The notes under the pieces are model-generated. The model did not search any database. It had not been told where the DNA came from and saw nothing but the letters and a program-made list of their open reading frames with translations. From Xiphophorus maculatus (lineage: Eukaryota > Chordata > Actinopteri > Cyprinodontiformes > Poeciliidae), in contig NC_036456.1 of NCBI RefSeq assembly GCF_002775205.1, positions 10,753,463-10,817,462 on the forward strand: a stretch of DNA of 64,000 bases, in the 5' to 3' direction. The position numbers were made by a program, and so were the translations under genes. Shown here one piece after another: positions 2,889 through 63,999 of the stretch (positions are counted from its first letter, which is position 1; every line of letters begins with the position of its first letter).

Positions 2889-2890
2889 CA

Positions 2891-2896: not shown

Positions 2897-2902
2897 TGAA
2901 TA

Positions 2903-3532
2903 CAGTGAACCCTCGTTTTTCGCGTGGGTTGCGTTCTGAAAAGAACCCGTTATAGGCGAAATCCGTGAAGTAGTTACCTTTATTTTTTACAATTATTATA
3001 CAGCATAATTAAATACTTTACATTGAAACCAAAGAACAAAGCCTGTTTTCAGGCCTAAGCAATTTTTTTTAGCAAATAGAACGCTTTCTTACAAATAACT
3101 ACAGTAAAACAATCATTTTAATCATCAATACGAAGTACAGTAGGACGAATTGTGACTCGCATCACTTGGATCTGGATCTGGGTAATCTATCACTGTTCCT
3201 CTGACTGTGACGCTGCAGCCTGACTCCCGCTCTCTAGTGTCTTTTTCTTCTGAAGCCTGTAATGCAGGTGTGTTTTTTTGAAAGAAGAACATAGTTATCG
3301 GTAGTTGTTGTCGCTCTTTTTTTCTTCTGGGCAAAAACATTTTTAAAAATTTGCTGTATTACGTATTTTTAAATACCACAACGTTATTGGCACACAGGTA
3401 GAGAAGAAGCGCGGAGACTGTTTAGTCAATCAGGACACAGAATACAATGCTCTATGAAAAAAATCTGCACAAAAAAATCCGTGAAGCAGCGAGTTTGTGA
3501 AAGGTGAACGGCGTTATAGCGAGGGTTCACTG
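2903..3532. mobile_element. Tigger/pogo-like non-autonomous DNA transposon
   Basis: A 630-bp element with inverted ends CAGTGAACCCTCG, flanked by TA. Inner repeats reading ATCCGTGAAG near both ends are typical of the Tigger group. Copy B has an uninterrupted site (ATGATTATACATATCTG), so this is a clean insertion into the promoter/5' leader of claudin A. It has no transposase frame (the longest frame is 71 codons on the - strand), so it is non-autonomous. Confidence 0.85.
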
Positions 3533-3721
3533 TATACATATCTGAGGATCCAGACACATTACACAGAGGTTATTGTCAACTCAACGGAGGGTCTCGCTTT
3601 CGGAGCTAATTTTTTTTCCCAAATTAACCGAAAAGAGAGAAGAAGGAAAGAAAACAGACTTGGATCTGGGTATTCTATCATTTTCTTTTGATTGTCTAAG
3701 AGTTGGACTGAAGAAACGGTC

Positions 3722-6525
3722 ATGGATCCAGTTGTGGAAGTAGTGGCTTTGTTTCTGGGGTTCATCGGATGGATAATGGTCGGGGTCGCGCTGGCACATC
3801 CTTACTGGAAGGTGGCCAGCGACGACGGGAACGTCATCACCACCTCCACCATCTACGAAAACCTGTGGATGTCCTGCGCCTCGGATTCAACCGGGGTCAG
3901 TGACTGCAGGGAGTTCCCATCGCTGCTTGCCTTGAATGGTAGGTTTAAAAAAATCTACAACAAAAGATGTAACAAGAGACTTTATATATAAATATATATT
4001 TATTCTACCAACTCAAAATACCAGGGACTTTACCTTGAAGAATCTATAAAAAAGATTTATATAATGAGATGTGGAGGTTAAATGATAAGAAGATTTTATA
4101 GGTTTGAGGAGACTATAAACTTTCCTCCACCGCCACAGATAAGGACTTTAATTTACTCATTTTTTCCTGGTTTATTCCTCCAGGTTATATCCAGGCCTCC
4201 CGTGCCCTGATGATTGCATCCATGGTATTGGGCACCTTCGGCCTTGTGGGGTCCCTGGTTGGAATCAAGTGTTCAAGATCATGGGGAGAAAACTATGTTC
4301 TCAAAGGGAGGATTGCAGGCACCGCCGGGGTTCTCTTCATCCTGCAAGGTAAGAAAACAGATTCAAGAACGTCCATCAGGGAAGCTTGCTGATAATTACG
4401 ACTTGCTGATTCACTGCTCTATAGAAAGATAAAGAAACTTCTCTAAAGGGACAATAAATCAGGATATGGTTTTATTGTGCATTTCAAATCATTCCTCCAT
4501 AAAATTTTCACTGGGTTCCTTAAAGAACCGGGTTAAACGGACTGGCAGCTTTCTAGCATTTTTATTTCTATCAAAAGGTCTTTGCACCATGGTCTCGGTG
4601 TCGTGGTACGCCTTCAACATCACCCAGGACTTCTTTGACCCCTTCTATCCGGGAATAAAGTAAGATGCAGCAGTAAAGCTGCTTAAAGTTGCACAGCAGA
4701 GCTTTAAGTAAGACATCAGCTGACCGTTTGTCTCTACGCCTCAGGTATGAAATAGGAGAAGGACTTTACATCGGCTGGTGCTCGGCCCTGCTCGCCATTG
4801 TCGGAGGAGTCTGTCTCTCCTGCTCCTGCAAAGCAGGCACAAAGGAAAAATAGTGAGTTTCCATCCATGTTGTGTTTAATACTCAAAGAGCTGAAAACAG
4901 GTGTCTGCCGAATGCACGGTTACAGTTTGACGAGGCCAAGTTGTTGATTAACTGCAATTAATCAAAGTCCTTAATAAGCTGCACACTGGGAAGCATGGCT
5001 CGAATGGCTGTGAACTGGCTGAAACATTACAAATACTCCAAGAGTAAAAACAAAAATGAGATTCAATCAGAGCTACTGGAAACGCTGCAGACTGATTTGG
5101 TCTTGAGGTGGAAATACCAGGAAGAGGTCAGAGGTCAGCAACTTGTTCGGTCCAAAGAGCCATTTGTAACATTGATCCAACTAGAGCTACAAATCCTCCT
5201 TGACCCTTAAGAAAAAGATAACTAATCTGGCTCTAAAAGAAAAAAAAGCAAATTTAAAAAAATGTGTTCACTGTTGAAAAAACACTTTTTATACTAGAAC
5301 AAGATTAAATAAATCACACAGATTTCTTCTGAGTGACTTTAAAGGACTTGCCAAAAAACATTTCAACCATTAGTGCCATCTGTAATGGAAATCTTACACA
5401 TATTATTGAATCAGACACATGGACTGATTAATTTAGCATTTAATGTAACCTCGTTATTTAAAAGAAGAGGGCTAATTTCTTTATAATTTTTGGTAAAGTT
5501 TGTCAGGTGGAAAAAGAGCCATAAGTAGCTCCAGACTCCTGGTTTAGGTGAAAAATAAAGATTCAAGCAGTTAAAAACCTGGTTTTAAACTGTTCGACTT
5601 TAGCGCCATCTAGTGTTGCAATAAAAACAGAGTGACAACCAGCCTGTATGCATTGCATAAAATCAAGTGTTTACAAATACAGCAGCAAAAGAAATCCAAA
5701 AATATGTTATTGGTGTAACCTTAGAAGGCTCACTTTATCAGGATATTGTTATAAATACATTACAAAACTGAAATTTTGTCCTAACGTGTGAAAAATCAAC
5801 CCTAGGAGGCAAAAACATTGTATTTTACGCTGACAAAGTTTGTTTCCTTTTGAATCCAAATCAGTCAGTGCCAATCAGGTTCTGCTATTGCAAAGTAATT
5901 AATGAAGTAATCATCAACAAAATAATTAAATAACTTAAGTTTGAAACATTGTATGTGAATGAAGAGAAGAGAAGTTTGACCATAATGCCCTTCACCATGT
6001 TTGCAGAAAACCAGACAGCACATCAGGTCAAAGCCTCATGCAAAGTATCAGGCACAGTGGTGGAAGAGTGATGACACGGGACATGATGCAATCTTAGAGT
6101 CACTCATGAAATTCACTGTATACCAAACCATATTTAGAGCTAAATATGAGGCAATCCAAAGTTTGGCATTTTGGATTTCTTTCTGGTAAATTAACAATTA
6201 ATGTGTTTATGTTTGAGTTCGCATTTACCTTTACTTTAAGACCCAGAGAAGACCAACTCTTTTACTAGTTGATGCATCAACATATAATATAAAAACTGAG
6301 AGTGAACCTTTTGACACGACTGTCTCTGATATCAAAAGAGAGAACCAGTGTGTAAATCTATTTGTCTTACAGTGCGTTACTCTCAACTATCAACTGTGTT
6401 TTGTTGTTTTTTGTTTTGTTTTTTGCAGCCCCTTGCGTTATCATGACAGAGGAATAGTGTACTCTGGAGCTGCACCAAGCAGAAGCGTCGCAGCCAGCAC
6501 TTATGAACGAAACGCTTACGTCTGA
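3722..6525 (+). CDS. cldn15: Claudin-15-like tight junction protein, copy A (5 exons)
   Basis: Exons are 3722-3938, 4184-4348, 4578-4659, 4745-4852 and 6429-6525, joining in frame to 222 codons. The product is a four-pass tight-junction protein. The first extracellular loop has the claudin signature N47-L48-W49 with C52 and C62, and the protein ends in the PDZ-binding NAYV. Loop residues E46, D55 and E64, which shape the cation pore of claudin-15, are present. Loop 2 reads [13 protein letters not shown], close to claudin-15 and unlike claudin-10. The ATG follows a leader shared with copy B. Compared with copy B and with claudin-15 generally, this copy is derived: AHP at 25-27, ASD at 32-34 and SD at 60-61 replace PNR, STV and HN. 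A Tigger-like element separates the TATA-like box from the ATG. The exact paralogue name among fish claudin-15 genes is uncertain. Confidence 0.92.
4853..6428 (+). other. Claudin A intron 4
   Basis: A 1.6-kb AT-rich intron ending in TTTTTTGCAG. It contains chance frames only, for example a 71-codon frame at 4995-5210 that also exists in copy B but resembles no family I know. Copy B carries a retroelement tail here that copy A lacks. Confidence 0.7.
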
Positions 6526-7034
6526 GCAGGATGGCATTTTTCTGACATCTTCTCACTTTTTATTCTTGTACATAAATCGTTCGTTTTTGAGGGTTTTTTA
6601 CTCTTTCTGCTGGCCTTGTTGTCCATGGCTGTGAACTTGCACCATTTGCTTACTGTTGGCAGTAACTGTAATGTATAGAATCACAATTTCTGATGAATTT
6701 CCTGTATAAATCATTACTAAGGCCGATGATATAAACACTGTACAGAGCTGTTTTGCTTTTCTCTCTGCCACAACACAGACTCAGTCATTTTACCATTTCT
6801 GTTTGTATTTCACTGATGAAATCAACATGTGGGCATTTACCAAAACAATAAATCATGCTTTGATCTTCATAAACAAGGACAGATATTTATGCGGTCAAAA
6901 TAGAGATGTTTCAGGTTTAATTTGTGTTGTTTTGTACAGTTTTGTAATGTGCCGTAAGGAGAGGATGGAGAACAATTGTTTTGCTTCAATTGTGTTGTTG
7001 TTTTTTTTTACTATTGAAGACAATAAAATATGTG
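6526..7034 (+). other. Claudin A 3' UTR with polyadenylation signals
   Basis: Conserved with copy B to the last shared base. AATAAA occurs near 6845-6852 and at 7022-7027. Homology between copies ends 7 bases after the second signal. Confidence 0.6.
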
Positions 7035-7576
7035 AACAAGACAACGCAACAAGCTATCTGAAGGAAAACAGGCTGAGGTTTACGGAGGATCTCACCACAG
7101 CTGACAAAGCTCTGCTGGAAAAACTGGCCATTAATTGAGGCAGCCAGGAAGGAAGGAAAAAAGGCCCACGTTGCTGGACTCTGCGTGATCATTGAGGGAA
7201 AAGAAGTCAAGTCACCGCTGTGTGTCCATAAGGACAGGAATGACCCCCTTCTGACTGATAATTGGCGTCCGATCTGCCTTCTTAACAACCACTATAAAAT
7301 TCTAGTTAGATTTTTTGTAATGAGGATGAAAAGTGTTCTTAGCCTTATAATTGATGAAACTAAAAATGGTTTCATGACACAAAGACATATAGCTAACAAC
7401 ATCAGGCTAGTGTTGGATCTGATTGACTATGCAGATTTGTGCCATGATGACAGCCTTATATTATTTTTAGATTTCCGTAAAGCCTTTGACATAATTGAAC
7501 ATAATTTTATTTTTCAAACATTAGAGAAATTTGGTTTTATAAATACCCCACAAATATATATGCGACACAAATACCC
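7035..7576 (+). mobile_element. LINE fragment, L1/Tx1-like, internally rearranged
   Basis: Translation of about 7035-7135 gives an ORF1-like tail (KENRLRFTEDLTTADKALLE). From about 7225 a reverse-transcriptase core follows: DNWRPICLLNNHYKIL, then NGFMTQRHIANNIRLVLDL, then LFLDFRKAFDIIEHNF, which are the L1/Tx1-type RT blocks. ORF1 tail and mid-RT are adjacent, so the intervening endonuclease part is missing and frame breaks are present. It starts exactly where duplication copy A ends and runs into the 1-kb repeat at 7577. It is a dead fragment. Confidence 0.8.
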
Positions 7577-8581
7577 CACAGTATTTGTGTCGTATCGTCC
7601 TCTGACATACAGGTCGAAACGAGGCTTCCTTGTAAATGCCTGTCCAATTCTGTTCAACACAACTTAATGGCGACTTTATTAGACGTTAAATTGAACGACA
7701 GTGTAGCTTTAGCTTCTGTGATTGACTAGCTGAACGTGATTATTCTGGAAGTTTCTCCTGGCAGTGAACTTGCACTTTGCACTGAACGTGAACTAACGGT
7801 CGGCTGGCCAGCCTGTAACGGTAAAGGGAACAAAGACACATATTTGCTTTAAATAATTAATTAAGGTGAGCTAACTGTTAAACTTCGTATGAAAATGAGT
7901 ATATTATTTGTTTTAACACGTTATTAGAGGTTAAAAAAAAGGAACAAATGTAGCCGTTTTGGCAAGCTAGGATGGTTCTACTTTCATGAATGAACATAAC
8001 GGAGCAGTCCTCCATTGCTTTGTCTTTATCGCCGCTGAAACGTGCCAGACGGATAAATGAGTGTTTGTGTCGAGGACTTTAACCCGCTGACGACCTCTCT
8101 CAGCGGCCACAGCGGTGGTCTCGGTCCCCTCTTCTCCACCACCGCTACCCCCACATCTCCATTGGGAATTGCAGGAGTCGTTCCAGTTCATTACACTGGT
8201 GGGCCTCTCTGAATCACCGAGCCCTGCGTGCATGCAGCGGCCGCCCCCCGGCGTTTCGTCGGCGGACCGCACTGCTGCACGGCTAGGCGGGAATCACGGA
8301 GGCTCCGGAGTGAGGAGGAGGCGGAGGGAGGCTGTTGTTGCTGCTGCGCACTAACAAAGGCGGGCACACAATAAAATCTGACAGACCTAGCTTATCAAGC
8401 AGCCAGTATTTTGGCTGCGCTTTAACGCTTAGCTTGTTTCTTTTTTTTAAAAAGGCGCAGCTATCTCCACTTGCCTATCAGTGGCTCTCCTCGCTGCATA
8501 AACCCAGGTCAGATTGCAGGTTAAACGGGAAAACTGAGTGGTAGAACGGTCAGACATATTCACATAATTTATTCATTGAAA
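7577..8581. repeat. 1-kb CpG-rich repeat, copy 1 (near-identical to chd3 intron 1)
   Basis: Matches 44045-45048 almost base for base; I saw differences only in two short A or T runs. It lacks obvious terminal inverted repeats, target duplications or known protein domains. It includes a GC-rich part (about 8090-8350) that resembles promoter or CpG-island DNA. It is joined on the left to a LINE fragment and on the right to a 150-bp sequence that recurs in cda intron 2. The direction of copying is not proven; the chd3 site looks like the donor. Confidence 0.9.
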
Positions 8582-8733
8582 TACTGTGTAAAACCTGCTG
8601 TTATGTGATTATAATAAATTAAATTAATCACTTGGGTAATAGCAACGAGAGAGTGGTAGAGTTTGACTGGCTGAAAAAAATGGCAGATTTGCATTTATAC
8701 ACTAAAAGAAAAGTGTTAATTTTTATTAATACA
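8582..8733. repeat. 150-bp repeat, copy 1 (upstream of cda)
   Basis: Contains CCTGCTGTTATGTGATTATA and GCAACGAGAGAGTGGTA, and recurs with small differences at 9557-9703 in cda intron 2. The two copies bracket cda exons 1 and 2. No inverted ends were seen, so the nature of the repeat is unknown. Confidence 0.8.
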
Positions 8734-9286
8734 GAAATAACCTTCAGGTTATTTGTACAAATCAGTTCATATCAATTGTAATCTCTACAGGACAAACAGA
8801 TTAAATTTAACTCCAACTACAATTTCATTTATAAAAATTAAACTGGCTTTGGGTAGGTGGGTAGAAATTATGCAGCACTTAAAAAAAAAAACGTTAGACT
8901 GCAAATGTGAGGCTCCCAAATTGGATTTTCCAAATAGTCACAAAAGAGGATTTGATTGTTGCAATGCCAAATAAAGATGTTTCTACTTAAAAACGTTTCC
9001 TGAGGGCAGAACCACTGTTGCTTTGGACAATTCATTTACTGTTTGAACGGGAGTCCCACAACTGATCCTATCAGAAACATGTGGACGTTGTCATCCCTGA
9101 TCAGCCAATCAGGTGGAAGGTAGTGCAGCCGTGCACATGAAAACCAGCTCAGGTCAACCACCCAGAAAAAAAACAAAATCTCTAAAACATTAACAGTTCA
9201 TTTGTCCGTCACGTGGTAGTTCAGCTTTAGACAGAGAAACTGTCCAGAACAGTCCATCTAACAAAGTGAGCGACCAATCTGCTACT
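8734..9286 (+). promoter_or_regulatory. cda upstream region
   Basis: About 550 bp of non-coding, moderately AT-rich sequence between the repeat and the cda ATG. It contains no TATA box close to the ATG. A candidate inverted CCAAT box (GATCAGCCAATCAGGTGG, CCAAT on the + strand) lies around 9100-9113. Confidence 0.35.
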
Positions 9287-10731
<1,445 letters not shown>

Positions 10732-11640
10732 AAACACGTCCACTGCACCTCTGGATGGCCTGAGGCTCCATGATTTTATTCCAACTAGCCTAGAAAAAAC
10801 AGTAAATATGAAAACCTGCTGTAGACCTACTACAAACATGTAACCATGCAGTTGATGTACAGTAAGTCTATTGTAGTAAAGAAAAGAAAAAACAACTGTC
10901 AAGTTTGTAGTAAGCCAGAAATTGATAAAACTATAATTTTGTTTTTCAACTTCATTTTCAGGCCTATATCAAATTAGAAGAAATAGATTATTAATATCAT
11001 GTAATATTAATATTAAATTGATATAAAATATTACTGTTATATAATACTATTATACATAATAATGATTATAATAATGTATAATAACTATAACTGTTATGAT
11101 AATAATAATAATTTGTTAATATCAAAATGTACAATAAAAAAAATATTATTATTTCTATTATGGTTGTTGTTGCTGTTATTGTTGTGGTAGGTTCCTTAAA
11201 CAGCTACATTTTACTCTTTATTTTGTTTCCATCAACAGGACAAACTTATTTGTCAGTCAGAGGTATAATGACGAGCAGGAAAGAAATTGTCCTGCTCAAA
11301 TAACAGATTACAAAGATAAATTCACATTAAGTAACTAGAACCGAAATGTTTTTTGTTGTCAAGCCCTTTCATCGTGGTGTTGAATGTTGAGTTCCTTGTT
11401 AAAGTGGATTATGTTTGGCTTGGAGTTTGACCATTTCTAAGATGCATAGAAGAAAATAAATGTTGGGCACGACTTAATAACTCGTTTCAACGACTTAGTT
11501 AATAGGTGGCCACGATTTTTATTTATTTATTTTTTCTTCTCATGTCACCACGTGAGTGTGAAATTTACCTAGAAAAAGTTGGAGTTGGATGAAGTAGGAA
11601 AAAAAGTCTTTATCCTTCAGCTCTAGGGGGGTGAAAAGGA
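10732..11640. other. cda 3' UTR and cda-fis1 intergenic DNA
   Basis: AT-rich; 10970-11160 is nearly pure A/T with many ATT/ATA runs. AATAAA-like signals occur near 11131 and 11454. Nothing coding was seen. Confidence 0.5.
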
Positions 11641-11713
11641 AAACATTACGTAAGCGTTGTTGTGTCATGTGACGTTGTGACGTGGGCGTGTCCCAGCCCC
11701 GTTTTCCGGAAAC
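11641..11713 (+). promoter_or_regulatory. fis1 proximal promoter with E-box/M-box, CRE-like/UPRE and ETS motifs
   Basis: Within 75 bases of the ATG there is TCATGTGA (11665-11672, the M-box bound by MiT/TFE factors), two TGACGT-type sites including TGACGTGG (11678-11685, core of the ATF6/XBP1 response element) and TTCCGG (ETS-like, about 11704-11709). There is no TATA box. These are motif matches only. Confidence 0.4.
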
Positions 11714-14145
11714 ATGGAGGCTGTTCTGAGTGATGTTGTAGCTCCTGAGGACCTCAAAGTAAGTTTTACATTATTAAACCTCTTACCTCGTCGCAGAGCG
11801 AACATATAAGCCAGTTAATAAGTAGCACCGATATCCTCTTACCTTCACTTGTCTCGGTAAAAGCTGACATTGTGGGAAAACTCAACACGTCGACACGTCT
11901 GTAGCGTCACGTAGCATGCTAATGCTAATGTCCATGTTTTGGGTTAACACTTGGTTGCCGTCTTAATCAAATTCTCTTTAGTAATCTGTACCTGGTGCCA
12001 AAAAGAGTTTTACATTTATATGTGGTTACATTAAATTGCACATAGTAGAACAATTAATGTAAATCTTACCCACCAGGATGTAACAGACGCTAAAAGTCGA
12101 TACTTTTTCTGATATGTTGTAATTTTAAGCTGTTTTTATGAAACTTATTTGTGGTTTTTCTGTTCCAGAAATTCGAGAAGAAGTACAACAACGAGCAGCT
12201 GAAGGGATCTGTTTCTAAGGAAACAAAGTTTGAGTATGCTTGGTGTTTAATCAGGAGTAAATACACAGACGACATCAAGAAGGGAGTGTTGCTCTGGTAA
12301 ATAAATGTTTATTATTAAAATTATTCATATTATTTTCCTTTATTTCTTCTAAGTAAACCTGTAGGAACCAGTCACATTCTTTCTGTGGACTGACTGCTTT
12401 AGCAAACATATATGTTTTTTGTCTTGCAGAACTTGTCCACAAATCGTCAAAGGACGACTCCCGGGACTATCTGTTCTACCTTGCAGTGGCCAACTACCGA
12501 CTCAAAGTCAGTCATCTTTCCAAATATAATATTTTTAAAGATATTGTATTTTCTTTCATAACGTGTTCAAAATATTCTCTTCTGTGTGAATGGTCAGAAC
12601 TTAATAGCTGTGGTGTCTCCTACCCACACCTCACTATTTATAAACAGGTTTACTTCTGTTATCTTCTAATGAACCAACTATTCATACCCATATGTTTAAC
12701 CATTGCATATTGGGTCATTTCTATTAGTATTTGAATATTTAATGAACACATTGTTTAATTTTGTTGTATGTTGTTGTTAGTGGATTTTGTGTGCTGTTTC
12801 TATTGCCTGTCATTTTGACTCCTGCTCAAACCAAAGTAACTCTGAATGACAACCTGCAAACACATGTTATTTACTGGAGTTATATAAACCACACTTTCTT
12901 GTAGCCGGATGTATGTAGATTATAGAAAATGAATTAACTAATTTAAGTCAGTGGTTACAAAATTATCTAACTAGAAACCATAGGCTTGGCAGGCATAAAC
13001 TAGATCAAAAATGTAAAGTATAAATAGGGTGAAATTTCCAACCCCAAAAGTAAAGAAAAGAATGAAAAAGAAAGATGTCTAAGAATGTTTAATGGATGAT
13101 TTCATTACCTATAATTCTTACTCCCTTCTTTTGATACAAACACTGAGTGACTTCTAAAACAATAAGGCAGTGTCTGCTGATTCAAGCATGTTACCGGTGA
13201 TGCAGCTAGATGTCACTGTGAGTCTGGAAAGTTAATACTTTGAGGTTTTCTTTTGGCATCAGTACATTTAAAGTTAAACTATTTTAATGTGTATATTTAA
13301 CTGTTATATTTTAACTTTTTCCTATTGATTGTTTCATGTTCAGTCACGGATCCATTCTTTTTGCATAACTGAGATGAAACACTACTTTAATTTGAAAAAT
13401 TGTTTCGTTTTGGGCTAATAATAACCCTTAAGTATTTTAACTTTTGCTATTTCAAATATTTTCACAAATATTTTCAAGTGTCTGTCAGAGGTTTACACCC
13501 ATTTACCTGGTGTTTTTTTTACACCAGGGTGGACTAATTAGACAGCTTGTTGTCAGAGTTTCTAATATCTGATTTATGTGTTTGTGGGGGGGTTGTTCCT
13601 CACCTGCATTCTGGTACGGCAGTGTGCCTGCCTCTGCTCCCTCCCTGACTGTCCTCTGAAGATAACTAATCAGGACTTTATGGTCTGCAGGTTATAATGG
13701 TCTCTTTCTCTGCTTTTAAGCTGTAATCTCTCCAACTATACCTCACGTGCCTCATTCACCTCACGTCTGATCTGCATCGACTTTGATCGTGGCAGATTTG
13801 ATTTGTTTTCAGAATTTTAGGTGACTTCTCTATTCTCTCTCTCTCTCTCTTTCCCCCCCAGGAATATGAAAAAGCCTTGAAGTTCATCCGGACTCTCCTG
13901 AGGAACGAGCCGGGGAACAAGCAGGCTCTGGAGCTGGAGAAGCTCATCGACAAGGCTTTGAAGAAAGGTAAGCGTGTGAAAAACAGCGTTCTGAAAACGC
14001 TCTATAAATCCCCACTCTCACGCCCGCTTGTCGTTGTCCAGACAGCTTGGTCGGCATGGCGATTGTTGGGGGAATCGGACTGGGCGTGGCAGGCTTGGCG
14101 GGTCTGATCGGCTTGGCGGTGTCAAAGGGAGCAGCGAAATCCTAA
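11714..14145 (+). CDS. fis1: Mitochondrial fission 1 protein (5 exons; exon 2/3 joint out of frame)
   Basis: Exons are 11714-11758, 12169-12296, 12430-12506, 13862-13967 and 14042-14145. FIS1 is a tail-anchored outer-membrane protein of mitochondria and peroxisomes whose TPR-like bundle helps recruit the fission machinery. Visible parts are MEAVLSDVVAPEDLK, then KFEKKYNNEQLKGSVS, then SRDYLFYLAVANYRLK, then EYEKALKFIRTLLRNEPGNK, and the C-terminal anchor GGIGLGVAGLAGLIGLAVSK followed by a short basic tail. Exon 2 ends with two bases left over (...GTG TTG CTC TG), whereas exon 3 (AA CTT GTC CAC) needs one left over, so the simple joint would hit TGA. The usual 'GIVLLEELV' appears shortened here. 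This could be a sequence error, a mutated allele or non-standard splicing; all other joints are in frame. Confidence 0.88.
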
Positions 14146-14737
14146 CCTGGATAAAAAATGTGTTCTGGACTTATACGTTGACCTCCATTAAGAAAAAAAC
14201 AAATAACCAAGTGCTAAAAAGAGGTTTGTTTGAAGTTGAATTTGTGCTGCGACACATTTGCAGCAAATGATGGTTGGAAAAAAATGTTTCATTCTTTAAC
14301 AGGGTTGAAAATCACATTTTCTTCTGTTCACACATGTCAGTCTCTAGCTACTTATCTTACTTCAGTTGAATAGGTTGTCATTTGCTTTCTGTATGTATTT
14401 CTAAGAATGTACAGGTTTGTTTCATTGTTTATGGATAAAGGAAAGCGTTACTGATGCTGTGTGAACAATAGGAGGTAACATGAAGAGATACTGGCTTAAA
14501 GTCTGCAGGGAAGTTCAGCTCAAAGCAGTGAACATTTATTTCAGACATGCTTTTTTTGTTTATTAAGAATAAGAACTAATAGAATTTACACATTTACTCG
14601 TGTTAAAAGCTTTCCTGATATTTACTATGTTTAATTATTTTATATCTTGGTAGATAAAATGACTGCGAGAATATTTATGTCACTGTTGATGTTTTTTTAC
14701 TGCAAATCATAAAGACTGATAAATTCATTTTTCAAAA
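14146..14737 (+). other. fis1 3' UTR and flank
   Basis: AT-rich non-coding DNA. No clear single polyadenylation site was chosen. Confidence 0.4.
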
Positions 14738-14920
14738 AAAAATAAATTCAAATTTTATTTGTATAGCACATTTCAGCAGCAAGGCATTTCAAAGTGCTTT
14801 ACATCATATCAAACACAGAAACACAATGCAACATAGAATCAACAATCAAAACATGACATTATGTCAGGTTCCATCAATAAATTTGTAAGTGATTACGTTT
14901 CAAATACAATCCTAAACAGG
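14738..14920 (-). mobile_element. Short retroelement tail repeat, copy 1
   Basis: Begins TTTTATTTGTATAGCACATT and continues with CAAGGCATTTCAAAGTGCTT, a very common fish interspersed repeat. Near-identical sequence occurs at 23651-23826 and a shorter copy at 38655-38760. In the other copies a simple repeat (TCAA or AAATC units) caps the left end, as expected for the 3' tail of a non-LTR element read on the - strand. The family was not determined. Confidence 0.6.
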
Positions 14921-17900
14921 TGGGTTTTTAGTCGAGTTTGCATCCATACTACTGTGTTATATGGAACAAAATACCTATTGCTATTTTTAGAGATTTAATG
15001 AAGATATAAAGGCTGAGTTGCAGAACCAAATTCATCAGACGACACTGCGTTTAAATAAATTAAATATATTTTGCTTCATTTTTTACTTTTACCCTGTGGC
15101 ACCTCAGTGTTACTCCGCCAACTTGCTGGAAACCAGGATCTGCTGCAAACTTTGATTTCAAAAAGGTGCATAAAAGAAATATTACACATTAACTGGACAT
15201 GAAATTGACTGAAATCCAAATGTGCTGCTCCATTGTGTTGGTACGGGCCGTCAGGCTCGGTGTCAAACAATAAAGTGCTGTCGTACTGGATTACACAATA
15301 ACCTTGATTACAGCGTGATGGGGGCATGCACATTGTTCCCAGTTGCATTTCTACATGTTGATTACACATTAATATCCTGCAGCACTCAATGAACGTTGGC
15401 CCGGTAACTCAAACTCACCGGAGCGTATCTGAATTAGCACTGCTCTGATAAATCATTGAGGGCAAAATGTGTTTTCAGTCTCAGGTTTCCTGGGTTCTTC
15501 TCATATGTTCCCGTTTCTCTCTCCTAGCGACATCTTTTCCGGTAAACAGATCATTTTTCCTGACAGGTCTGGTGAGTTTCGGTGTCGTCAGACGGGTTAA
15601 TGAGTTACCCCTCCCGAAGTTGAAAACAGTACAAGCAGCTGATAGCCTCTATAAGCCTTCCTGTTGTAAAATCAAGCCGAGAACTTGAATCTTTCTGGAG
15701 TCTGAGGCATGTCTGATAGAACCTCCGAGAACCTGGGCAGCGTGTTTCTGTCCAAACCCGTATCAGTGAGGCCGTTAAATGCTGCCGGTGTCCGCCTCCA
15801 TTTTTAATTAGGCCAATAAAAGACGTCGATTAGGCTGGAACTATGATGGACTTTAGCCTCATTGTGAGTCTAATGACTGAAATTTTGGCGTAATTAATGA
15901 GGAGCAGCGGGTTCAGATAACTGGAAAATTTTCCGCTCTTCAAAGCAGAACAAAGGACAAGGACTTACGCAAAGTTCAGGTATCCGCTTTGCTTTGAGCC
16001 ACTCGTAAATAACTCCTCTTATTTACATAACTCAGCTAAAATTGTATTTTCCCACATTAGTTTTCACAAGCATTTTTCTAACAGAGTCATCCACAATTCC
16101 TTAGAAAGGAAGCATAAAAATCCTTTAAAAAATACATTCTTATGGCGACCAAGTGGCCACATTTTGCTGCTGTTTTTAAACTTTAAAAACCCTATTAATG
16201 TCCTCCATCTAAGCTTTTTTGGGTCAGTCCCAGATGTTTCAGACTTTTTGAAAACATTGCTCTGACAGTAGAAAAGAGTTATTTCAGCAAGTAGCCATTT
16301 CCTGATCAATCAAGATCAGCATACCTCTGCCTTTCCCGTCTTCCCCATTTTGAAGAGTTTTGATTGGGATTAGAAAAAGATTAGATTTTTCACATTTTTT
16401 CTTGTCAGAAGGCTGCACTCTTAATTGTCATATCTAAATGTTGCTCTATATGAGAGAAGCGTAATAAGTGAAAATCCTTTTCAAAAGAGACAGGCCTGTT
16501 CTGTTTCAGTCTGAATGGTAAAGCTGCAACCAACTATGACTCGCCCAGGTAAAAAAGAAAAGTAAGAGGATTAAAGAAATTCATTAAATTAACTAGAAAA
16601 GATTGAATTATGGAAAGCAGAAGCCACTCAAGACATTTCTGAACTTTTGCTACAAGACAGACAAAAGTAAACTGAGCATATTTTTGCCCAGAACATCTCA
16701 TATTTACAGGCCCATTCAATAAATTAAAATATTGTGTAAAGATTCATTTACTTCAGGAATTTAATTCACTAAATGAAACAGTGAAACATATTTTCAAGCA
16801 GTTTCTCTTACATATAAATTTCTGCTAATAGCTAATGTAAACACGACATGTAAGTTTGAAAGATTTGACTAAAGTTACCTGAAGTTTCACCAGGAAGTGG
16901 CCTTGACTTCTTGCACACTTCCAGAGGGAATATCAACCAGACGGCTTTCTCTCGGCTCAGAGATGTGATATATAATCTGGGGTTCTTATTAATAGAGAAG
17001 CTTCCAGATTTATGTTTTTTAAGATAAGTAACCTCCCTATTAGAGATACCATTGAGAAAAAGCTTTTAATAACTAAACTAAAATGTATTTTTAATAGCTA
17101 GCAGATGCAGGTCTCAGGGTTATTTGTGGTTCCCATGGAAGAACCTTTATTTATCAAGCTCTTCTCATGTGAAACCAGCTGCTTTGTTCGCCATATAAAT
17201 CAGATTATAGGTCAGCCTACTTAAATACTTAATATTAAGACTTCTAGAGAATTTGTTTCTATAATTTGATATAGTTTAAATCAATCAGGGTCAAGTACAG
17301 CGTGAAAAGGTGCGTCTGGAAAGTGTTCAACAGCTCAAATCCACATTTTGTGGGAGCGGTTGGTCAGATCTGACAGTTGCCTGGCAACAGCCTATCAATT
17401 ATTATTGTGTTTTGAATGTTGCCCGAATCTGATTGGTGGAGAGAATGTAGAATCATTTCCGTTCTTTTTGAAAGGCTGCCTTAAAAAAAAAAGAAAGAAC
17501 ACAGTGCAGACCTTTGAATCCTCCCACTACAATGAACTGTTTGACATGACACACATAATCTGCCATATCCAAAACTTTGGCTTATAATGTTGTTTTTATT
17601 TTCGACTTTCCATCACTGCTTTGGTGTATCTCGAATGTTTGGTTAATTTTTGAACATTATGTGTCATTAAAGAAAAGGGATTCTCGAAATAGATGAAATA
17701 TTCCTCCAGAAATCTGGTCCAATAATTATTAAGCAGTTCAGAACAGACTCTGTTTAAACATTTATCTGTGCACTCTTCCATGATGCGCCTCATCATCGCA
17801 TGCTCATCTGATGTCCCTTTGCGTGGTCCGTTCCTGGAAAGCTAGTGGAAAAACTTACAGCCTTTCTAGGTATCACTTCACAAGTCATATAAATTATTGT

Positions 17901-18289
17901 TTTTCAAAGGCAAAGCTTGAGTGAAATCTGATTTTAAACTTTCAAACCCTCAGCAGTCACTCATGCAGTCGGAGGAGCTGTAAAACACGCTTCGCAAACA
18001 GTTTGGTCGTAAAACGGGCCGTTTATGGACATGGAGCAGGACCCGTGTTTTAGAGCAGCTCAGGTGTCAGTGACATTGGTGAGGGTGTTTTATTTGTTTG
18101 GTTTTAACAAGGATGTAAATGTCTAAATTTGATATATTGATCAGGATGCAGAGCTATAAGTAATCCCCTGTCATTTATAGCTGTAGTGTTCTCCATTGTA
18201 TTGTTAGACGTGTTGTTTACTTGCCAGTTCAATGCGAAGCCAAAGCTTTGTATTTGTACTCTGAAAAATGATGCAGCGTTTTGTTAAAG
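14921..18289. other. Gene-free interval between fis1 and duplication copy B
   Basis: No gene recognised on either strand; the longest frames are below 100 codons and have no family resemblance. The part at about 15220-15440 and 15720-15930 is less AT-rich and holds paired TAATTA-type homeodomain cores and CAATAAA motifs, so it might be a conserved regulatory element. The rest is ordinary AT-rich DNA. Confidence 0.4.
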
Positions 18290-18560
18290 CATTATATTTT
18301 TTATCTTTTGTCCCACTTCTACCACAACCTCAGTGTATTATTAATTTGGTTTTATTGTGATAGACCAACAATAAGTAATGCATGATTAGGAAGGGGAAGC
18401 CAAAGGATAAATGGTTACATCAGTGTTCAGGTTGTGCCACCAGCTCTCAAGTTTATGTAGGTCTGGACTTTGACTAGGTCATTCCAAAGCAACAACATGT
18501 TTCGATCTAAAACGTGATGGCTGTACATTAAGGCTCTTTTTCCTGTTGAGAGGTGAAATC
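18290..18560. mobile_element. Degenerate Tc1-like transposon remnant (left edge of copy B)
   Basis: Contains TTATTGTGATAGACCAACAA and GGTCTGGACTTTGACTAGGT followed by GATCTAAAACGTGATGGCTG, all familiar pieces of vertebrate Tc1-like elements in the usual order but decayed. The visible homology with copy A starts inside it. Confidence 0.5.
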
Positions 18561-19733
18561 TAATCTCAAATCTTATGTTTGAAAACCTCCATTGTGTGAG
18601 GATTTGAGTTTTTCTGTGTGTTTATTTTGGGTTTCTGTGTCTATTGAGTCTCCGTGTTGTCCTGTCTATCCCTTGATTGTTCCCAGCTGTGGGAACAATC
18701 TAGGGGTCGACAGCCCGCCCACCCTGGTTGGGATGTTTTCTGTTTTTTCTGTGGACTCTTGCCCTCCGTCCAGCGCCCCTCCGCCCACCCTGGTTGGGTT
18801 GTTTTTTGTTTTTTTTCTCGATACATTACAAGTTATTCTGACTGTTTCTGCATTCCAGAGATTTCTAAAAGTGACTAAAATTGATGTGAATAATTTTACA
18901 GTACAATTTGTAGACTATAATTCGCACATTTACATTCAACTTTTAGTTAAGAGTTTGGAATATACTTTGTTTTAAAATACATTTAAAGGCAGTAAATATG
19001 TTTCAAGCCCAAATGTGAGGAAAAGCTAAAAACATCAAGCAATAAAAGTATCCATAGAGCAAATCCAGAAAACTCTCAAAACCCATTTTTATGAACGAAT
19101 CTTGAATCTTGAACATCCTGTCAATTTTAAACAGAGCTCCAACAATAAGGAACACTTTAACAGTTATACAGAGCCATGTGAATTTGTTAGATTATTTTCT
19201 TCTTTAATAACAAACACTTTAATTTAAAAACTGTGTTTTGTGTTTTCCTGTGTTGTCTTAAATTTTGAAATTGGGTTGATGTTCCGAAACACTTAAGTGT
19301 GACAAACATGCAAAATGTTGGGAAATCAGGAAACACTATTCCACACCACTGTAAATAAATATTAATATCTTTTCACATTGATCTAATTTGGAAGCATACA
19401 AATAAAAACAGTTTTGATATGATTTGATTTTGTGACAGGAGAGAATTACTGTAGAGGTAATGTACACCTCATTACCCAGAGTACAAATCTTTCTGAAACA
19501 GAAACACACATGTGGACTTAGCTTAAAATTGAGCATTTAAACTTTACAGATAACAATATGTTGCTTCTCTTTTATTTTTTCTAACAATTTGGAGTTATTT
19601 TTATTTTACTTGAAATGCAAATGTTTTATTTTGTGAAACAAACACTATGAAAATCCATATTTAGGCTGCGACTGGAGAGAATATTATATGCATCTAATTT
19701 ATTTGTTTTTAAAGAATTTCATCACAAATTTTT
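18561..19733. other. Non-coding flank of claudin B
   Basis: Collinear with 111-1340 of copy A. It is AT-rich with no gene recognised. Confidence 0.6.
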
Positions 19734-19920
19734 TATCTATTTTTTCTCCCCTCCAGGGGGTCATTTTGTGGGCTCTAGTGTCCCTTATATGAAAGTAGGC
19801 TGACAGGAAAGGGGGAGAAGACATGCGGCAAAGGTTGCCGGGTCCGGGAATCGAACCCACGATGACCGCGTCGAGGACTCAAGGCCTCCAAACGTGGGTC
19901 GCACTATCCCCTACACCACC
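19734..19920 (-). mobile_element. tRNA-derived SINE with target-site duplication
   Basis: On the - strand a pol III B box (GGTTCGATTCC) lies within GTGGGTTCGATTCCCGGACC, preceded by a tRNA-like head and followed by a body and a T-rich end, a common fish SINE type. ATCACAAATTTTT occurs immediately on both sides (about 19720-19732 and 19921-19933) as the target duplication. Copy A has an uninterrupted site near 1318-1335, so insertion followed the duplication. Confidence 0.88.
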
Positions 19921-20120
19921 ATCACAAATTTTTAGTATAAATTTTAAAAAAAAACAGTTCACAAAATATTTCCTACACATTTCTGAAGGTCAATGCACAT
20001 CCTGTCTTGCTGGATCAGTTTTGATCTTATAAAAGTAGAGAAACACTAATCAGCTGCAGAAACCCTCATAAACAATGGATTCAGTTGGATTCAGTTCAGG
20101 AAATGTGGAAAGACATTGGA

Positions 20121-20123
<3 letters not shown>

Positions 20124-20171
<48 letters not shown>
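20124..20171. repeat. (AT)n microsatellite
   Basis: About 24 AT units in copy B, at the site where copy A carries its MITE in a TA-rich context. Confidence 0.95.
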
Positions 20172-20178
<7 letters not shown>

Positions 20179-20363
20179 TTGCAGCAAGAGATGACTGACG
20201 TAAAGTAATTTTAGAAACCTGTGTTTTCCTGGCTCTGTGTATTTTGTTCTCTACTCTTTGTTATTCTGTTTTAACTCTATTACCTTTTTATTCAGTTGTT
20301 GGATTCCCAGAACCTTTTGTCCTGAGCAGGAGCGATAATTATTCGACATTTCTGACAATGTCT

Positions 20364-20478
20364 GATAATTATATACTGTATATATATACTTCAAACATGC
20401 TCTGATTATATACTGTATATATATACTTCAAACATGCTCTGATTATATACTGTATATATATACTTCAAACATGCTCTG
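20364..20478. repeat. 37-bp tandem repeat, 3 units
   Basis: Unit reads TCTGATTATATACTGTATAT then ATATACTTCAAACATGC, three times, with a slightly variant first unit. Copy A has only one 'CTTCAAACATGCTCT', so the array expanded in B. Confidence 0.9.
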
Positions 20479-21146
20479 GAGATTTCTAAAAAAACAAAAA
20501 AAAAAACAAAGTTCCTCCCTGAAACTTGGCCTGCCCTATTTCTAGATCTTTTTTGTTGACCTTTAAACAAATGAATTTGCGCCTTTATGAATTCTCTCTC
20601 TTCTACCAGATTGACAGCTGGGTCTCAACTGCAGGCTAAGATTTATCTTCAATATTATCAGCTGGGCCAACTTAAAGCAATCAGAGGATTTGTCAGCGCT
20701 GACCCAGATTCCATCACTGGGTGTTATTAATGAGGTCCAACAAACACAGAAACTTTGAGATAAACTAGAGAACTGTGAACTTTTTGTCTCTGCATTTCTG
20801 CTTGTTAACCATTGAGATTATTCCAGTTAGATGTTGACGTTGTTGCCCTGCGTTCTATTTTTTTATGAGAGATCTTCTCAAATAGCCAAGTAAACAGAGT
20901 TCAAATCATCAGTCCAATTTATTAAAGCCAAATAAGTGATCCATTGTTTAGGATCAACAGAGAAATAATTTACCATTACAGCGCTGGTCCACTGCTGCAC
21001 GTCCTTAAGGGACCCGGACAATAGCTTTTGATTCCTTCCAGCTCCTAGATAAGCTACTCCCTAAAGAGAGCGTTCCCCTGTAGTGCAATTTCCATACCCA
21101 TACGTGTGTGTGTGGGGGTGTGCGTACGTGTGTGTGTGTGCGTGTG

Positions 21147-21660
21147 CGCATGCGAGCATCAACCGGCTAAAATAGATAGAGGAAAAATACAGAATCATTT
21201 ATCCATAACAACATTGTTCCAAAAAGCTAGGCGTGACACTTGGTGAACGTGTGTTCATGTCCCGTGGCCTTCAGATGTTCAACTCAAAACAATAAAACCA
21301 GCCTAGAAACATCTTTTACCACACCTCATTGTGAAACTTGCGTTCAGCCACGTTCAGACTCAATATTTGGGTTCCCACATGAAGAGAAACCGTCAGCGTA
21401 TCAACGTTTGCTGATGAACTTTGATTGCTCGTTCAAATCGCACAAATAAATTGATTCTTTGACAAAGTAGTTCAAAATTCTGACCATGTCTTTGAAAAAT
21501 CCACATATGTTCAGCAGGTAATAATCTAAATGTGATGAGCAAACATTTTTGAGGCATACGTAAAAAAGCATTAAGGACAACTGATGACCATTGGACCTTG
21601 AAAGTGAGCCGATAAACACCTGTTCAGTTTCAGAGGTGTAAAAAAAATAGAAAAGCAGAT
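21147..21660. other. Upstream segment present only in claudin copy B
   Basis: About 500 bp between two (TG)n-rich tracts (before 21147 and after 21660). Copy A has a single (TG)n tract here. The simplest explanation is loss from A by recombination between TG tracts; insertion in B is the alternative. No gene was recognised inside it. Confidence 0.7.
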
Positions 21661-21772
21661 AGTGTGTGTGTCTGCGTGGGTGGGCGTGTGTATTGTGTGT
21701 GTGTGTGTGTGTGTGTGTGGGACAGAGGGAGAGAGTAAGATAGAGGGTAGTGGGAGGAGAAACCGCTAGTAT

Positions 21773-21778
21773 TATAAA
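21773..21778 (+). promoter_or_regulatory. TATA-like box of claudin B
   Basis: TATAAA about 190 bases before the ATG, in a context with no insertion. A start site 25-30 bases downstream would fall near 21800. Confidence 0.4.
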
Positions 21779-21970
21779 TGATTATACATATCTGAGGATC
21801 CAGACACATTACACAGAGGTTATTGTCAACTCAACGGAGGGTCTCGCTTTCGGAGCTAATATTTTTTCCAAATTAACCAAAAAGAGAGAAGAAGGGAAAA
21901 AAACAGACTTGGATCTGGGTATTCTATCATTTTCTTTTGATTATCTGAGAGTTGGACTGAAGAAACGGTC

Positions 21971-24950
21971 ATGGATCCAATTGTGGAAGTAGTGGCTTTG
22001 ATTCTGGGGTTCGTCGGATGGGTGATGGTCGGGGTCGCGCTGCCGAATCGTTACTGGAAGGTGTCCACCGTGGACGGGAACGTCATCACCACCTCCACCA
22101 TCTACGAAAACCTGTGGATGTCCTGCGCCACGGATTCAACCGGGGTCCATAACTGCAGGGAGTTCCCATCGCTGCTTGCCTTGAATGGTAGGTTTAAAAA
22201 AAATCTACAACAAAAGATGTAACAAGAGACTTTATATATAAATATGTATTTATTCTACCAACTCAAAATACCAGAGACTTTACCTTGAAGAATCTATAAA
22301 AAAGATTTATATAATGAGATGTGGAGGTTAAATGATAAGAAGATTTTATAGGTTTGAGGAGACTATAAACTTTCCTCCACTGCCACAGATAAGGACTTTA
22401 ATTTACACATTTTTTCCTGGTTTATTCCTCCAGGTTATATCCAGGCCTCCCGTGCCCTGATGATTGCATCCATACTGTTGGGCACCTTCGGCCTTGTGGG
22501 GTCCCTGGTCGGAATCAAGTGTTCGAAAGCAGGGGGAGAAAACTATGTTCTCAAAGGGAGGATTGCAGGCACCGCCGGGGTTCTCTTCATCCTGCAAGGT
22601 AAGAAAACAGATTCAAGAACGTCCATCAGGGAAGCTTGCTGATAATTACGACTTGCTGATTCACTGCTCTATAGAAAGATAAAGAAACTTCTCTAAAGGG
22701 ACAATAAATCAGGATATGGTTTTATTGCACATTTAAATCATTCCTCCATAAAATTTTCACTGGGTTCCTTAAAGAACCGGGTTAAACGGACTGGCAGCTT
22801 TCTAGCATTTTTATTTCTATCAAAAGGTCTTTGCACCATGGTCTCGGTGTCGTGGTACGCCTTCAACATCACCCAGGACTTCTTTGACCCCTTCTATCCG
22901 GGAACCAAGTAAGATGCAGCAGTAAAGCTGCTTAAAGTTGCACAGCAGAGCTTTAAGTAAGACATCAGCTGACCGTTTGTCTCTACGCCTCAGGTATGAA
23001 ATAGGAGAAGGACTTTACATCGGCTGGTGCTCATCCGTGCTCGCCATTGCCGGAGGAGTCTGTCTCTCCTGCTCCTGCAAAGCAGGCACAAAGGAAAAAT
23101 AGTGAGTTCCCATCCATGTTGTGTTTAATACTCAAAGAGCTGAAAACAGGTGTCTGCCGAATGCAGTTACATTTTGACGAGACCAAGTTGTTGATTAACT
23201 GCAATTAATCAAAGTCCTTAATAAGCTGCACACTGGGAAGCATGGCTCGAATGGCTGTGAACTGGCTGAAACATTACAAATACTCCAAGAGTAAAAACAA
23301 AAATGAGATTCAATCAGAGCTACTGGAAACGCTGCAGACTGATTTGGTCTTGAGGTGGAAATACCAGGAAGAGGTCAGAGGTCAGCAACTTGTTCGGTCC
23401 AAAGAGCCATTTGTAACATTGATCCCACTAGAGCTGCAAATCCTCCTTGACCCTTAAGAAAAAGATAACTAATCTGGCTCTAAAAAAAAAAAAAAGCAAA
23501 TTTAAAAAAATGTGTTCACTGTTGAAAAAACACACTTTTTATACTAGAACAAGATTAAATAAATCACACAGATTTCATCTGAGTGACTTTAAAGGACTTG
23601 CCAAAAAACATTTCAACCATTAGTGCCATCTGTAATGGAAATCTTACACATCAATCAATCAATCAAATTTTATTTGTATAGCACATTTCAGCAGCAAGGC
23701 ATTTCAAAGTGCTTTACATCATATCAAACACAGAAACACAATGCAACATAGAATCAACAATCAAAACACAACATTAAGTCAAGTTCCATCAATAAATTTG
23801 TAATTGATTACGTTTCAAATACAAATACATATTATTGAATCAGACACATGGACTGATTAATTTAGCATTTATTGTAACCTCGTTATTTAAAAGAAGAGGG
23901 CTAATTTCTTTATAATTTTTGGTAAAGTTTGTCAGGTGGAAAAAGAGCCATAAGTAGCTCCAGACTCCTGGTTTAGGCGAAAAATAAAGATTCAAGCATT
24001 CACTTGGTTTTAAACTGTTCGACTTTAGCGCCATCTAGTGTTGCAATAAAAACAGAGTGACAACCAGCCTGTATGCATTGCATAAAATCAAGTGTTTACA
24101 AATACAGCAGCAAAAGAAATCCAAAAATATGTTATTGGTGTAACCTTAGAAGGCTCACTTTATCAGGATATTGTTATAAATACATTACAAAACTGAAATT
24201 TTGTCCTAACGTGTGAAAAATCAACCCTAGGAGGCAAAAACATTGTATTTTACGATGACAAAGTTTGTTTCCTTTTGAATCCAAATCAGTCAGTGCCAAT
24301 CAGGTTCTGCTATTGCAAAGTAATTAATGAAGTAATCATCAACAAAATAATTGAACAACATAAGTTTGAAAAATTGTATGTGAATGGAGAGAAGAGAAGT
24401 TTGACCATAATGCCCTTCACCATGTTTGCAGAAAACCAGACAGCACATCAGGTCAAAGCCTCATGCAAAGTATCAGGCACAGTGGTGGAAGAGTGATGAC
24501 ACGGGACATGATGCAATCTTAGAGTCACTCATGAAATTCACTGTATACCAAACCATATTTAGAGCTAAATATGAGGCAATCCAAAGTTTGGCATTTTGGA
24601 TTTCTTTCTGGTAAATTAACAATAAATGTGTTTATGTTTGAGTTCACATTTACCTTTACTTTAAGACCCAGAGAAGACCAACTCTTTTACTAGTTGATGC
24701 ATCAACATATAATATAAAAACTGAGAGTGAACCTTTTGACATGACTGTCTCTGATATCAAAAGAGAGAACCAGTGTGTAAATCTATTTGTCTTACAGTGC
24801 GTTACTCTCAACTATCAACTGTGTTTTGTTGTTTTTTGTTTTGTTTTTTGCAGCCCCTTGCGTTATCATGACAGAGGAATAGTGTACTCTGGAGCTGCAC
24901 CAAGCAGAAGCGCCGCAGCCAGCACTTATGAACGAAACGCTTACGTCTGA
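21971..24950 (+). CDS. cldn15: Claudin-15-like tight junction protein, copy B (5 exons)
   Basis: Exons 21971-22187, 22434-22598, 22827-22908, 22994-23101 and 24854-24950 join to 222 codons with the same architecture as copy A. This copy keeps the canonical claudin-15 loop: [21 protein letters not shown] at 47-49, C52/C62, and pore-lining E46, D55 and E64. It ends in YERNAYV for PDZ binding to ZO proteins. I count 23 amino-acid differences from copy A, 13 of them in exon 1. Relative to A it lacks two acidic residues (V34 for D, N61 for D) and gains R27. Its promoter lacks the transposon seen in A. It probably represents the ancestral function, a paracellular cation pore in epithelia such as gut. 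Confidence 0.93.
23651..23826 (-). mobile_element. Retroelement tail repeat inside claudin B intron 4
   Basis: Starts with four TCAA units then TTTTATTTGTATAGCACATT, matching 14738-14920. Copy A continues across the site without it (CTTACACATATTATTGAATC, near 5394). Short repeats of TACACA/TACATA at the borders may be the target duplication. The simple-repeat tail places the 3' end at the left, so the element is on the - strand. Confidence 0.75.
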
Positions 24951-25459
24951 GCAGGATGGCATTTTTCTGACATCTTCTCACTTTTTATTCTTGTACATAA
25001 ATCGTTCATTTTTGGGGTTTTTTTACTCTTTCTGCTGGCCTTGTTGTCCATGGCTGTGAACTTGCACCATTTGCTTACTGTTGGCAGTAACTGTAATGTA
25101 TAGAATCACAATTTCTGATGAATTTCCTGTATAAATCATTACTAAGGCCGATGATATAAACACTGTACAGAGCTGTTTTGCTTTTCTCTCTGCCACAACA
25201 CAGACTCAGTCATTTTACCATTTCTGTTTGTATTTCACTGATGAAATCAACATGTGGGCATTTACCAAAACAATAAATCATGCTTTGATCTTCATAAACA
25301 AGGACAGATATTTATGCGGTCAAAATAGAGATGTTTCAGGTTTAATTTGTGTTGTTTTGTACAGTTTTGTAATGTGCCGTAAGGAGAGGATGGAGAACAA
25401 TTGTTTTGCTTCAATTGTGTTGTTGTTTTTTTTTACTATTGAAGACAATAAAATATGTG
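24951..25459 (+). other. Claudin B 3' UTR with polyadenylation signals
   Basis: Collinear with 6526-7034. AATAAA at 25447-25452. Confidence 0.6.
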
Positions 25460-26009
25460 TATAAGTGAAAACTGGAGTTTGACTTGATATTTTTGTAATC
25501 ACAAAATGTTGTGATTCTAATGCTTTTTTAATAAAAATATTTTCCCGTATATTTCCCATTATTGGGATCTATCCTTACTGCCAAATGTACCAATTCCCGC
25601 TTTGATTAAAGCTCACCTGACCTCATTCTCAGAGAATTTATGGAGTATTGTTAAGAGAATGAAGTGAAATACCAAAACCAACGGCCTCCTCGGCAGAATC
25701 ACAGAACCACACTGCATTCATTCAGCATTTATGTAAAAGAAGCTCTAACCAAGTATTAGTACTTACACACACTTTTTTAGTAGATGGGTGTTTCTGTATT
25801 AAAAATCCTTTGTTGGCTGGGTTTTGAAATACTGAGATAAGTTAACTTTATTTAAATGTATTCAAATGGACCTGTAAAGAAACTGGATATTGGGAAAGAG
25901 TCATTTTTCCCATCACTATCAGGCAGACCTTAAGTTTTTTTAGGGCGACAGCTCCTCTAGCAGTGGCTTGAGACATACTAGGAGTGCCACCAGTGTTAAA
26001 ATAGGCTGT
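25460..26009. other. Intergenic DNA between claudin B and dnajc3
   Basis: Unique, non-coding. Nothing was recognised before the dnajc3 promoter. Confidence 0.5.

Positions 26010-43177: not shown

Positions 43178-63999
<20,822 letters not shown>

Follow-up and report, generated by a model that had tools for sequence, protein, structure and literature searches.

The residues that set pore selectivity have been studied largely in mutated mammalian claudins, a family recognised by the first-loop signature W...LW...C...C. In the model of mammalian claudin-15, as presented in the accessible part of PMC12898017, D55 forms the filter, D64 lines the pore, and N61 faces the pore and helps to coordinate partly dehydrated sodium next to D55; in the model described in the available text of PMC5581167, N61 pairs with N61 of the adjoining subunit. 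In fish, ten sites of cldn15lb were reported to be under positive selection in the loach Misgurnus anguillicaudatus (PMC5187763, partial text), and the cldn15a and cldn15b transcripts of medaka respond differently to salinity (PMC7085193, partial text). We describe here two claudin genes, copies A and B, found in a stretch of 64,000 nucleotides of Xiphophorus maculatus (C14:10753463-10817462, referred to as the window; genome assembly of 704 Mb in 101 contigs), inside a direct tandem duplication with a unit of about 16 kb. This duplication would have given rise to two claudin-15 genes, of which copy B would have kept the ancestral first loop, and the first loop of copy A was probably remodelled by positive selection, with a predicted effect on the cation pore.

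Both copies pass the claudin profile PF00822 (104.5 bits for A and 111.5 bits for B, with a cut-off at 26.7 bits) and carry the family signature as W29, L48 W49, C52 and C62. With copy B as query, the closest solved relative is claudin-15 (4p79, 219.6 bits, E=3.7e-64), followed by claudin-19 (156.8 bits), and the tail of both copies suggests the claudin-15a type. Searches of the available contig collections returned no fish cldn15a orthologue, and no paper was found when three short peptides were looked for in literature text. Copies A (3722-6525) and B (21971-24950) are both intact, with five exons, 222 residues, GT..AG introns and a C-terminal NAYV, and share the same exon lengths (217, 165, 82, 108 and 97 bases, 669 in total):

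3722..3938, plus strand: copy A exon 1, with 17 differences from B; residues 1-72 plus one base, covering the start, the first transmembrane segment and the greater part of the first extracellular loop
3794..3823, plus strand: copy A codons 25-34, with AHP (25-27) and ASD (32-34) where B has PNR and STV; two base-change clusters, residue changes assigned to the A branch
3881..3904, plus strand: copy A codons 54-61, SDSTGVSD; T54S, H60S and N61D, placed on the A branch and flanking the kept D55
4184..4348, plus strand: copy A exon 2; 8 differences from B
4578..4659, plus strand: copy A exon 3; 2 differences from B
4745..4852, plus strand: copy A exon 4; 4 differences from B
6429..6525, plus strand: copy A exon 5, C-terminal ...NAYV and stop; 1 difference from B
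21971..22187, plus strand: copy B exon 1, the conservative copy (PNR, STV, H60 N61)
22434..22598, plus strand: copy B exon 2
22827..22908, plus strand: copy B exon 3
22994..23101, plus strand: copy B exon 4
24854..24950, plus strand: copy B exon 5

The coding sequences differ at 32 of 669 bases (17/217, 8/165, 2/82, 4/108 and 1/97 from exon 1 to exon 5) and the proteins at 23 residues, 13 of them in exon 1, which reproduces exactly the counts of a preliminary description made from the sequence alone. That description stated that nearly all exon changes alter the residue, and a base-by-base count gave 26 altering and 6 silent differences. Introns 1 to 4 differ at 4/245 (1.6%), 2/228 (0.9%), 0/85 and 21/1570 bases, the first three as already claimed, the 3' flank at 5/515 and the side of the 5' untranslated region (UTR) at 6/188, and noncoding divergence over the gene body amounts to 38/2831 (1.34%). 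Upstream, divergence reaches 78/2241 (3.5%) over all aligned blocks and 31/1465 (2.1%) over three cleaner blocks, which were picked post hoc, once repeat-rich stretches had been seen to carry many differences, so that both rates were used in the tests. All the residues singled out beforehand were recovered: AHP, ASD and SD in copy A for PNR, STV and HN in copy B, D34 and D61 in A, R27 in B, and E46, D55 and E64 invariant between the two. As had been proposed, the charge of the paracellular loop shifts, from a net -1 in B to -4 in A when K, R, D and E are counted. The claim that change is focused on the ion-pore loop was only partly borne out: exon 1 holds more than its share of the residue changes (13/72 versus 10/150 elsewhere, p=0.017), but residues 25-75, the loop taken by itself, show no significant enrichment over the remainder (9/51 versus 14/171, p=0.066).

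Compared with noncoding DNA, protein change was clearly accelerated. Nonsynonymous differences affect 25 of 495 sites, against 38 of 2831 noncoding positions (p=1.1e-6), and in exon 1 they reach 15/163 (9.2%), about 7-fold the noncoding 1.3% (p=5.9e-8), which bears out the earlier statement that exons diverge faster than introns; the exon 1 excess was also found relative to the cleaner upstream blocks (p=2.4e-6) and to all upstream DNA (p=6.6e-4). The pair is a clear case of exons outpacing introns after duplication. As a test against chance, the difference pattern was displaced circularly along the alignment. Of 3067 displacements of 217 columns or more, none attained the observed count for all exons or for exon 1; when smaller displacements, which partly coincide with the real position, were added, the count for all exons was attained in 43 of 3499 and that for exon 1 in 93 of 3499. 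Two mutational explanations were considered and rejected, namely GC-biased conversion, as the exon 1 differences are balanced (5 weak in A and strong in B, 5 the reverse, 7 neutral), and CpG hypermutability, CpG transitions numbering 5 among the 32 differences in exons and 6 among the 38 in noncoding DNA.

The changes were assigned to branches over codons 1-189 with the other claudin-15 gene of the genome, on C11, as outgroup, a distant paralogue and not an orthologue from a related fish. Up to codon 189 there are 31 base differences, of which 17 were placed on A and 7 on B, with 7 undecided (p=0.064); in exon 1, 12 fall on A and 3 on B (p=0.035), with 2 unassigned, and all nine assigned residue changes of the first loop fall on A (9 versus 0, p=0.004). 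At the 23 differing residues, mouse claudin-15 has the residue of B in 11 cases and that of A in 3, the other 9 matching neither or not being covered (p=0.057). Exon 1 of the A branch carries 11.5-13.5 nonsynonymous changes and 0.5 synonymous change averaged over paths (proportions of changed sites, pN 0.071-0.083 and pS 0.009), where half the neutral divergence would give 1.1-2.9 nonsynonymous changes. The ratio of nonsynonymous to synonymous change (dN/dS) is therefore above 1 in exon 1 of copy A, the branch on which the preliminary description had placed its test, and the B branch shows no excess. With codon 34 resolved without a synonymous step, the counts are 14 versus 0 or 12 versus 0 (one-sided p=0.017-0.031); exons 2-4 show no excess on the A branch (p=0.62-0.91). 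Positive selection on the loop of copy A would have involved P25A, N26H, R27P, S32A, T33S, V34D, T54S, H60S and N61D. Mechanistically, because D55 is the charge filter in the mammalian model and N61 beside it coordinates the ion, D61 would put a second ring of acid at the D55 filter, and the likeliest effect would be a paracellular pore that is more cation-selective or binds ions more tightly. The polar residue N61 next to the filter, which mouse claudin-15 has and which may be a defining trait of claudin-15, is kept in B and replaced by D61 in A.

Several observations weigh against selection on copy A. The C11 outgroup is remote, with a pS of about 0.70 in exon 1, and it conflicts with mouse at residues 60, 87, 106, 169 and 170; the tail of medaka Cldn15a, in the portion of its source that was available, fits V211 of A better than A211 of B. 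Significance on the A branch in exon 1 depends on codon 34, which carries two base changes: if a synonymous step is allowed there, the counts become 13 versus 1 or 11 versus 1 (p=0.10-0.16), and over codons 1-189 the A branch gives p=0.046-0.41. Pairwise dN/dS is 1.25 for the whole gene (p=0.39) and 2.54 for exon 1 (p=0.16), neither being significant. In the remaining exons the nonsynonymous excess is slight, if present at all (10/332): p is 0.024 relative to the gene body, 0.17 relative to upstream DNA and 0.054 relative to the pool. Synonymous sites of the exons also exceed noncoding DNA (7/171 versus 38/2831, p=0.012), and 5 of 6 synonymous differences are no more than 3 bases away from a nonsynonymous one (p=0.0006); since they adjoin in this way, part of the change arose as multi-base clusters, which are able to mimic selection. 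Finally, as N61-N61 contacts join neighbouring subunits in the model, D61 could weaken assembly instead of modifying the filter, which is the chief alternative to the predicted pore effect. The signal is clear against noncoding DNA and borderline in the strict branch test.

Because the coding differences are clustered, mutational events were counted instead of bases. With differences up to 3 bases apart merged, 17 events in 669 exon bases compare with 31 in 2831 noncoding bases (p=0.0055), and exon 1 has 10 in 217 (p=0.0004); wider merging gave p=0.013 for the exons and 0.004-0.007 for exon 1. A neutral simulation, in which multi-base mutation clusters were drawn as seen in noncoding DNA, produced a mean of 7.5 residue changes and never reached 23 in 4000 runs. 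The 13 changes of exon 1 were reached in 2 of 4000 runs, and in 5 of 2000 and 59 of 2000 when the rate was doubled and tripled. The whole-gene excess is less secure, 23 changes being reached in 68 of 2000 runs at the double rate and in 736 of 2000 at the triple rate.

These simulations also bear on the idea that copy A, once duplicated, came under relaxed constraint or began to decay, aided by multi-base mutations, which we consider very unlikely. Relaxation would lift protein change to the neutral rate and not beyond it, whereas exon 1 exceeds noncoding DNA about 7-fold and unconstrained simulation hardly attains its count; moreover, copy A retains its frame, its splice sites, both loop cysteines and the residues E46, D55 and E64. 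In favour of decay are radical changes such as R27P, the clustered substitutions, the borderline strict branch test and the state of the region upstream of copy A, where a transposon of 634 bases, bounded by perfect terminal inverted repeats of 15 bases (TACAGTGAACCCTCG, including the TA target) and absent from B, lies in the presumed promoter and where the added stretch contains three ATGs:

2891..2898, plus strand: putative promoter element, a TATA-like box 831 bases ahead of the copy A ATG
2901..3534, plus strand: transposon, between the TATA-like box and the start codon of copy A
21773..21780, plus strand: putative promoter element, a TATA-like box 198 bases ahead of the copy B ATG

The transposon has at least 41 matches in the genome including itself (40 of 530 candidates were scored), the best other copy being 94% identical among the matches listed. 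Its position between the TATA-like box and the start codon suggests that it may have altered the expression of copy A.

The clustering of changes also speaks for gene conversion, in which short tracts of the copy A exons would have been overwritten from another claudin, the changes being imported and not singly selected. Multi-base events account for 8 of 17 coding and 6 of 31 noncoding events (one-sided p=0.047, two-sided p=0.055, 0.056 with a wider gap), the differences are limited to exons and clustered, and synonymous ones stand beside nonsynonymous ones. According to the preliminary description, conversion would be the explanation if exon 1 of copy A had its match in a third claudin locus, and no such locus was found in the assembly, where the claudin family profile matches 101 times when counted by exon. 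In a DNA search of the 704 Mb with 3533-4900, the only hits listed apart from A and B were two in the C11 gene, at 75-76%, one over exon 2 and the other over the extra first exon. A protein search with exon 1 gave 46 matches, in which A and B (82%) were followed by C11 at 69% and 68%, then by matches at 55% or less. When 30 of these 46 matches were examined base by base, none of the 28 besides A and B looked like a donor: of the 17 positions that differ in exon 1, the base of A was present at 8 at most (L068, with 8 as in A, 5 as in B and 3 as in neither). It is true that 13 of the 28 are nearer A than B, by 1-5 of about 200 bases, but each is only about half identical to A. Residues 54-62 of copy A, SDSTGVSDC, also occur in the distant claudin L054; serine 60 is, however, encoded by AGT in A and by TCC or TCT in L043, L044, L046 and L054, and the motif looks convergent since L054 uses other serine codons. 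An older donor would furthermore be expected to import many synonymous differences, the opposite of what exon 1 of A displays. Conversion from another claudin thus appears quite unlikely.

The C11 gene was considered separately as a donor. It has two first exons, both intact and in phase and separated by 2 kb (L038, 4393-4608 and 6375-6590, minus strand), which are 60% identical in DNA, one canonical (PNR/STV/HN) and one with CASDSTGVYDC. The extra first exon, 2 kb before the usual one, is the 68% protein match and shares S54 and D61 with A; it was rejected as donor, its DNA being 61.8% identical to A and equally to B, with AGC and not TCG as the S54 codon. The arrangement looks like alternative first exons, and presumably resembles those known for claudin-10. 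Over the 30 claudin exons examined, D61 was found in four, namely copy A, this extra first exon (L042), L046 and L054.

Between the two explanations put forward at the outset, positive selection for new ion selectivity or exon-wise conversion, selection is thus favoured, given the A-branch ratio above 1 in exon 1, the excess over noncoding DNA and the absence of a donor among the loci examined, with the strict branch test borderline; a new ion selectivity would be its presumed outcome, so that the first explanation is partly supported. Positive selection on the first loop of copy A would probably represent an event of an ordinary kind, the neofunctionalisation of a tandem duplicate. A more specific version is possible but doubtful: selection would have built a double acidic filter in copy A (D55 together with D61, and E64 in addition), converging on distant claudins and on the spare first exon of the C11 gene and giving a new preference, for instance for divalent cations, together with transposon-altered expression.

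The two units of the duplication are as follows:

1..7040, plus strand: left duplication unit within the window, beginning about 8.6 kb before it
8886..25465, plus strand: right duplication unit

At the 3' end, 441 bases are identical between A and B (6594-7034), a run longer than expected by chance (permutation p=0.007), perhaps a recent conversion tract or the result of 3' UTR constraint. This run is consistent with a different history, in which A and B would be old duplicates homogenised by recurrent conversion between them, selection against conversion having left diverged exon islands. Synonymous divergence of the exons above that of noncoding DNA points the same way, as does uneven divergence along the unit, four alignments further upstream having 13/2078, 35/1929, 22/1140 and 12/430 mismatches per aligned column. 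However, introns 1 (1.6%) and 2 (0.9%) show no island shoulders, although intron 1 lies between the two most diverged exons, and synonymous change on the A branch in exon 1 is only 0 or 1, which makes this history unlikely.

The two units are separated by a spacer of about 1.8 kb (7041-8885) that belongs to neither, and each has private insertions, the transposon at 2901-3534 in A and a 162-base repeat at 23663-23824 in intron 4 of B. These features argue against an assembly artefact in which haplotypes of a single gene had been placed in tandem. A divergence of 1-2% is possible for fish alleles, but alleles would need balancing selection for their exons to be more diverged than their introns, and we regard an artefact as extremely improbable.

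Other features of the surroundings were recorded. The spacer contains a reverse-transcriptase fragment (7077-7560) and a stretch at 7564-8581 that is duplicated at 44031-45048; this 1 kb CpG-rich pair is 99.3% identical and in the same orientation, one member lying at the join of the tandem duplication, beside the reverse-transcriptase fragment, and the other upstream of chromatin-remodeller exons. The 162-base repeat of copy B intron 4, which is not in copy A, has another copy at 14748-14909 (97%). No third claudin was found with significance in the window by tblastn, nor was any claudin found in the 30 kb upstream of it. Exons of a chromatin remodeller, which we take to be of CHD type, extend over 46208-60130 (PHD, SNF2 and helicase profile matches), and possible exons of a tetratricopeptide gene, perhaps DNAJC3-like, over 28367-31900, with a single tetratricopeptide repeat match, below the cut-off, at 28367-28768.

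Compared with described claudins, both copies share with claudin-15 (mouse 4p79 and medaka Cldn15a) E46, D55 and an acidic residue 64. Copy A departs from it by D for N61, S for T54, D for V34 and the loss of R27. Copy A resembles L054 (SDSTGVSDC) and L046 (SDTTGVSDC), both presumably claudin-10-like, in S60 and D61, but these are only 40-43% identical to B in exon 1 and encode S60 by TCT and TCC, against AGT in A. Were the double acidic filter proposed for copy A correct, this copy would be a natural experiment in paracellular pore design. The pair itself, natural and near-identical, with nine loop differences round a kept D55 and B serving as control, offers a direct test of residue 61 and its neighbours and would connect pore chemistry with selection in fish. 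The mutants described in the accessible part of PMC12898017 are D55E and D55N, not N61D, and a limited literature search found no N61D mutant. As for medaka Cldn15a, in the portion of PMC7085193 that was available, copy B likewise has H60 and R63 and a tail resembling the epitope, H60 being also found in the C11 gene. Medaka also has two claudin-15 genes, but these form an a/b pair, whereas A and B are recent tandem copies of one of them, the C11 gene being likely the counterpart of the other. The loach cldn15lb is similarly a claudin-15-type gene under positive selection; unlike the present pair, it is, in the available part of the report, one gene compared across species, with sites not placed on the pore filter (PMC5187763). 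A duplicated claudin-10 is mentioned for killifish gill (PMC8215749, partial text) and, as far as these partial texts go, precedents for a change such as that proposed for copy A exist in loach cldn15lb and in the killifish claudin-10 duplicates.

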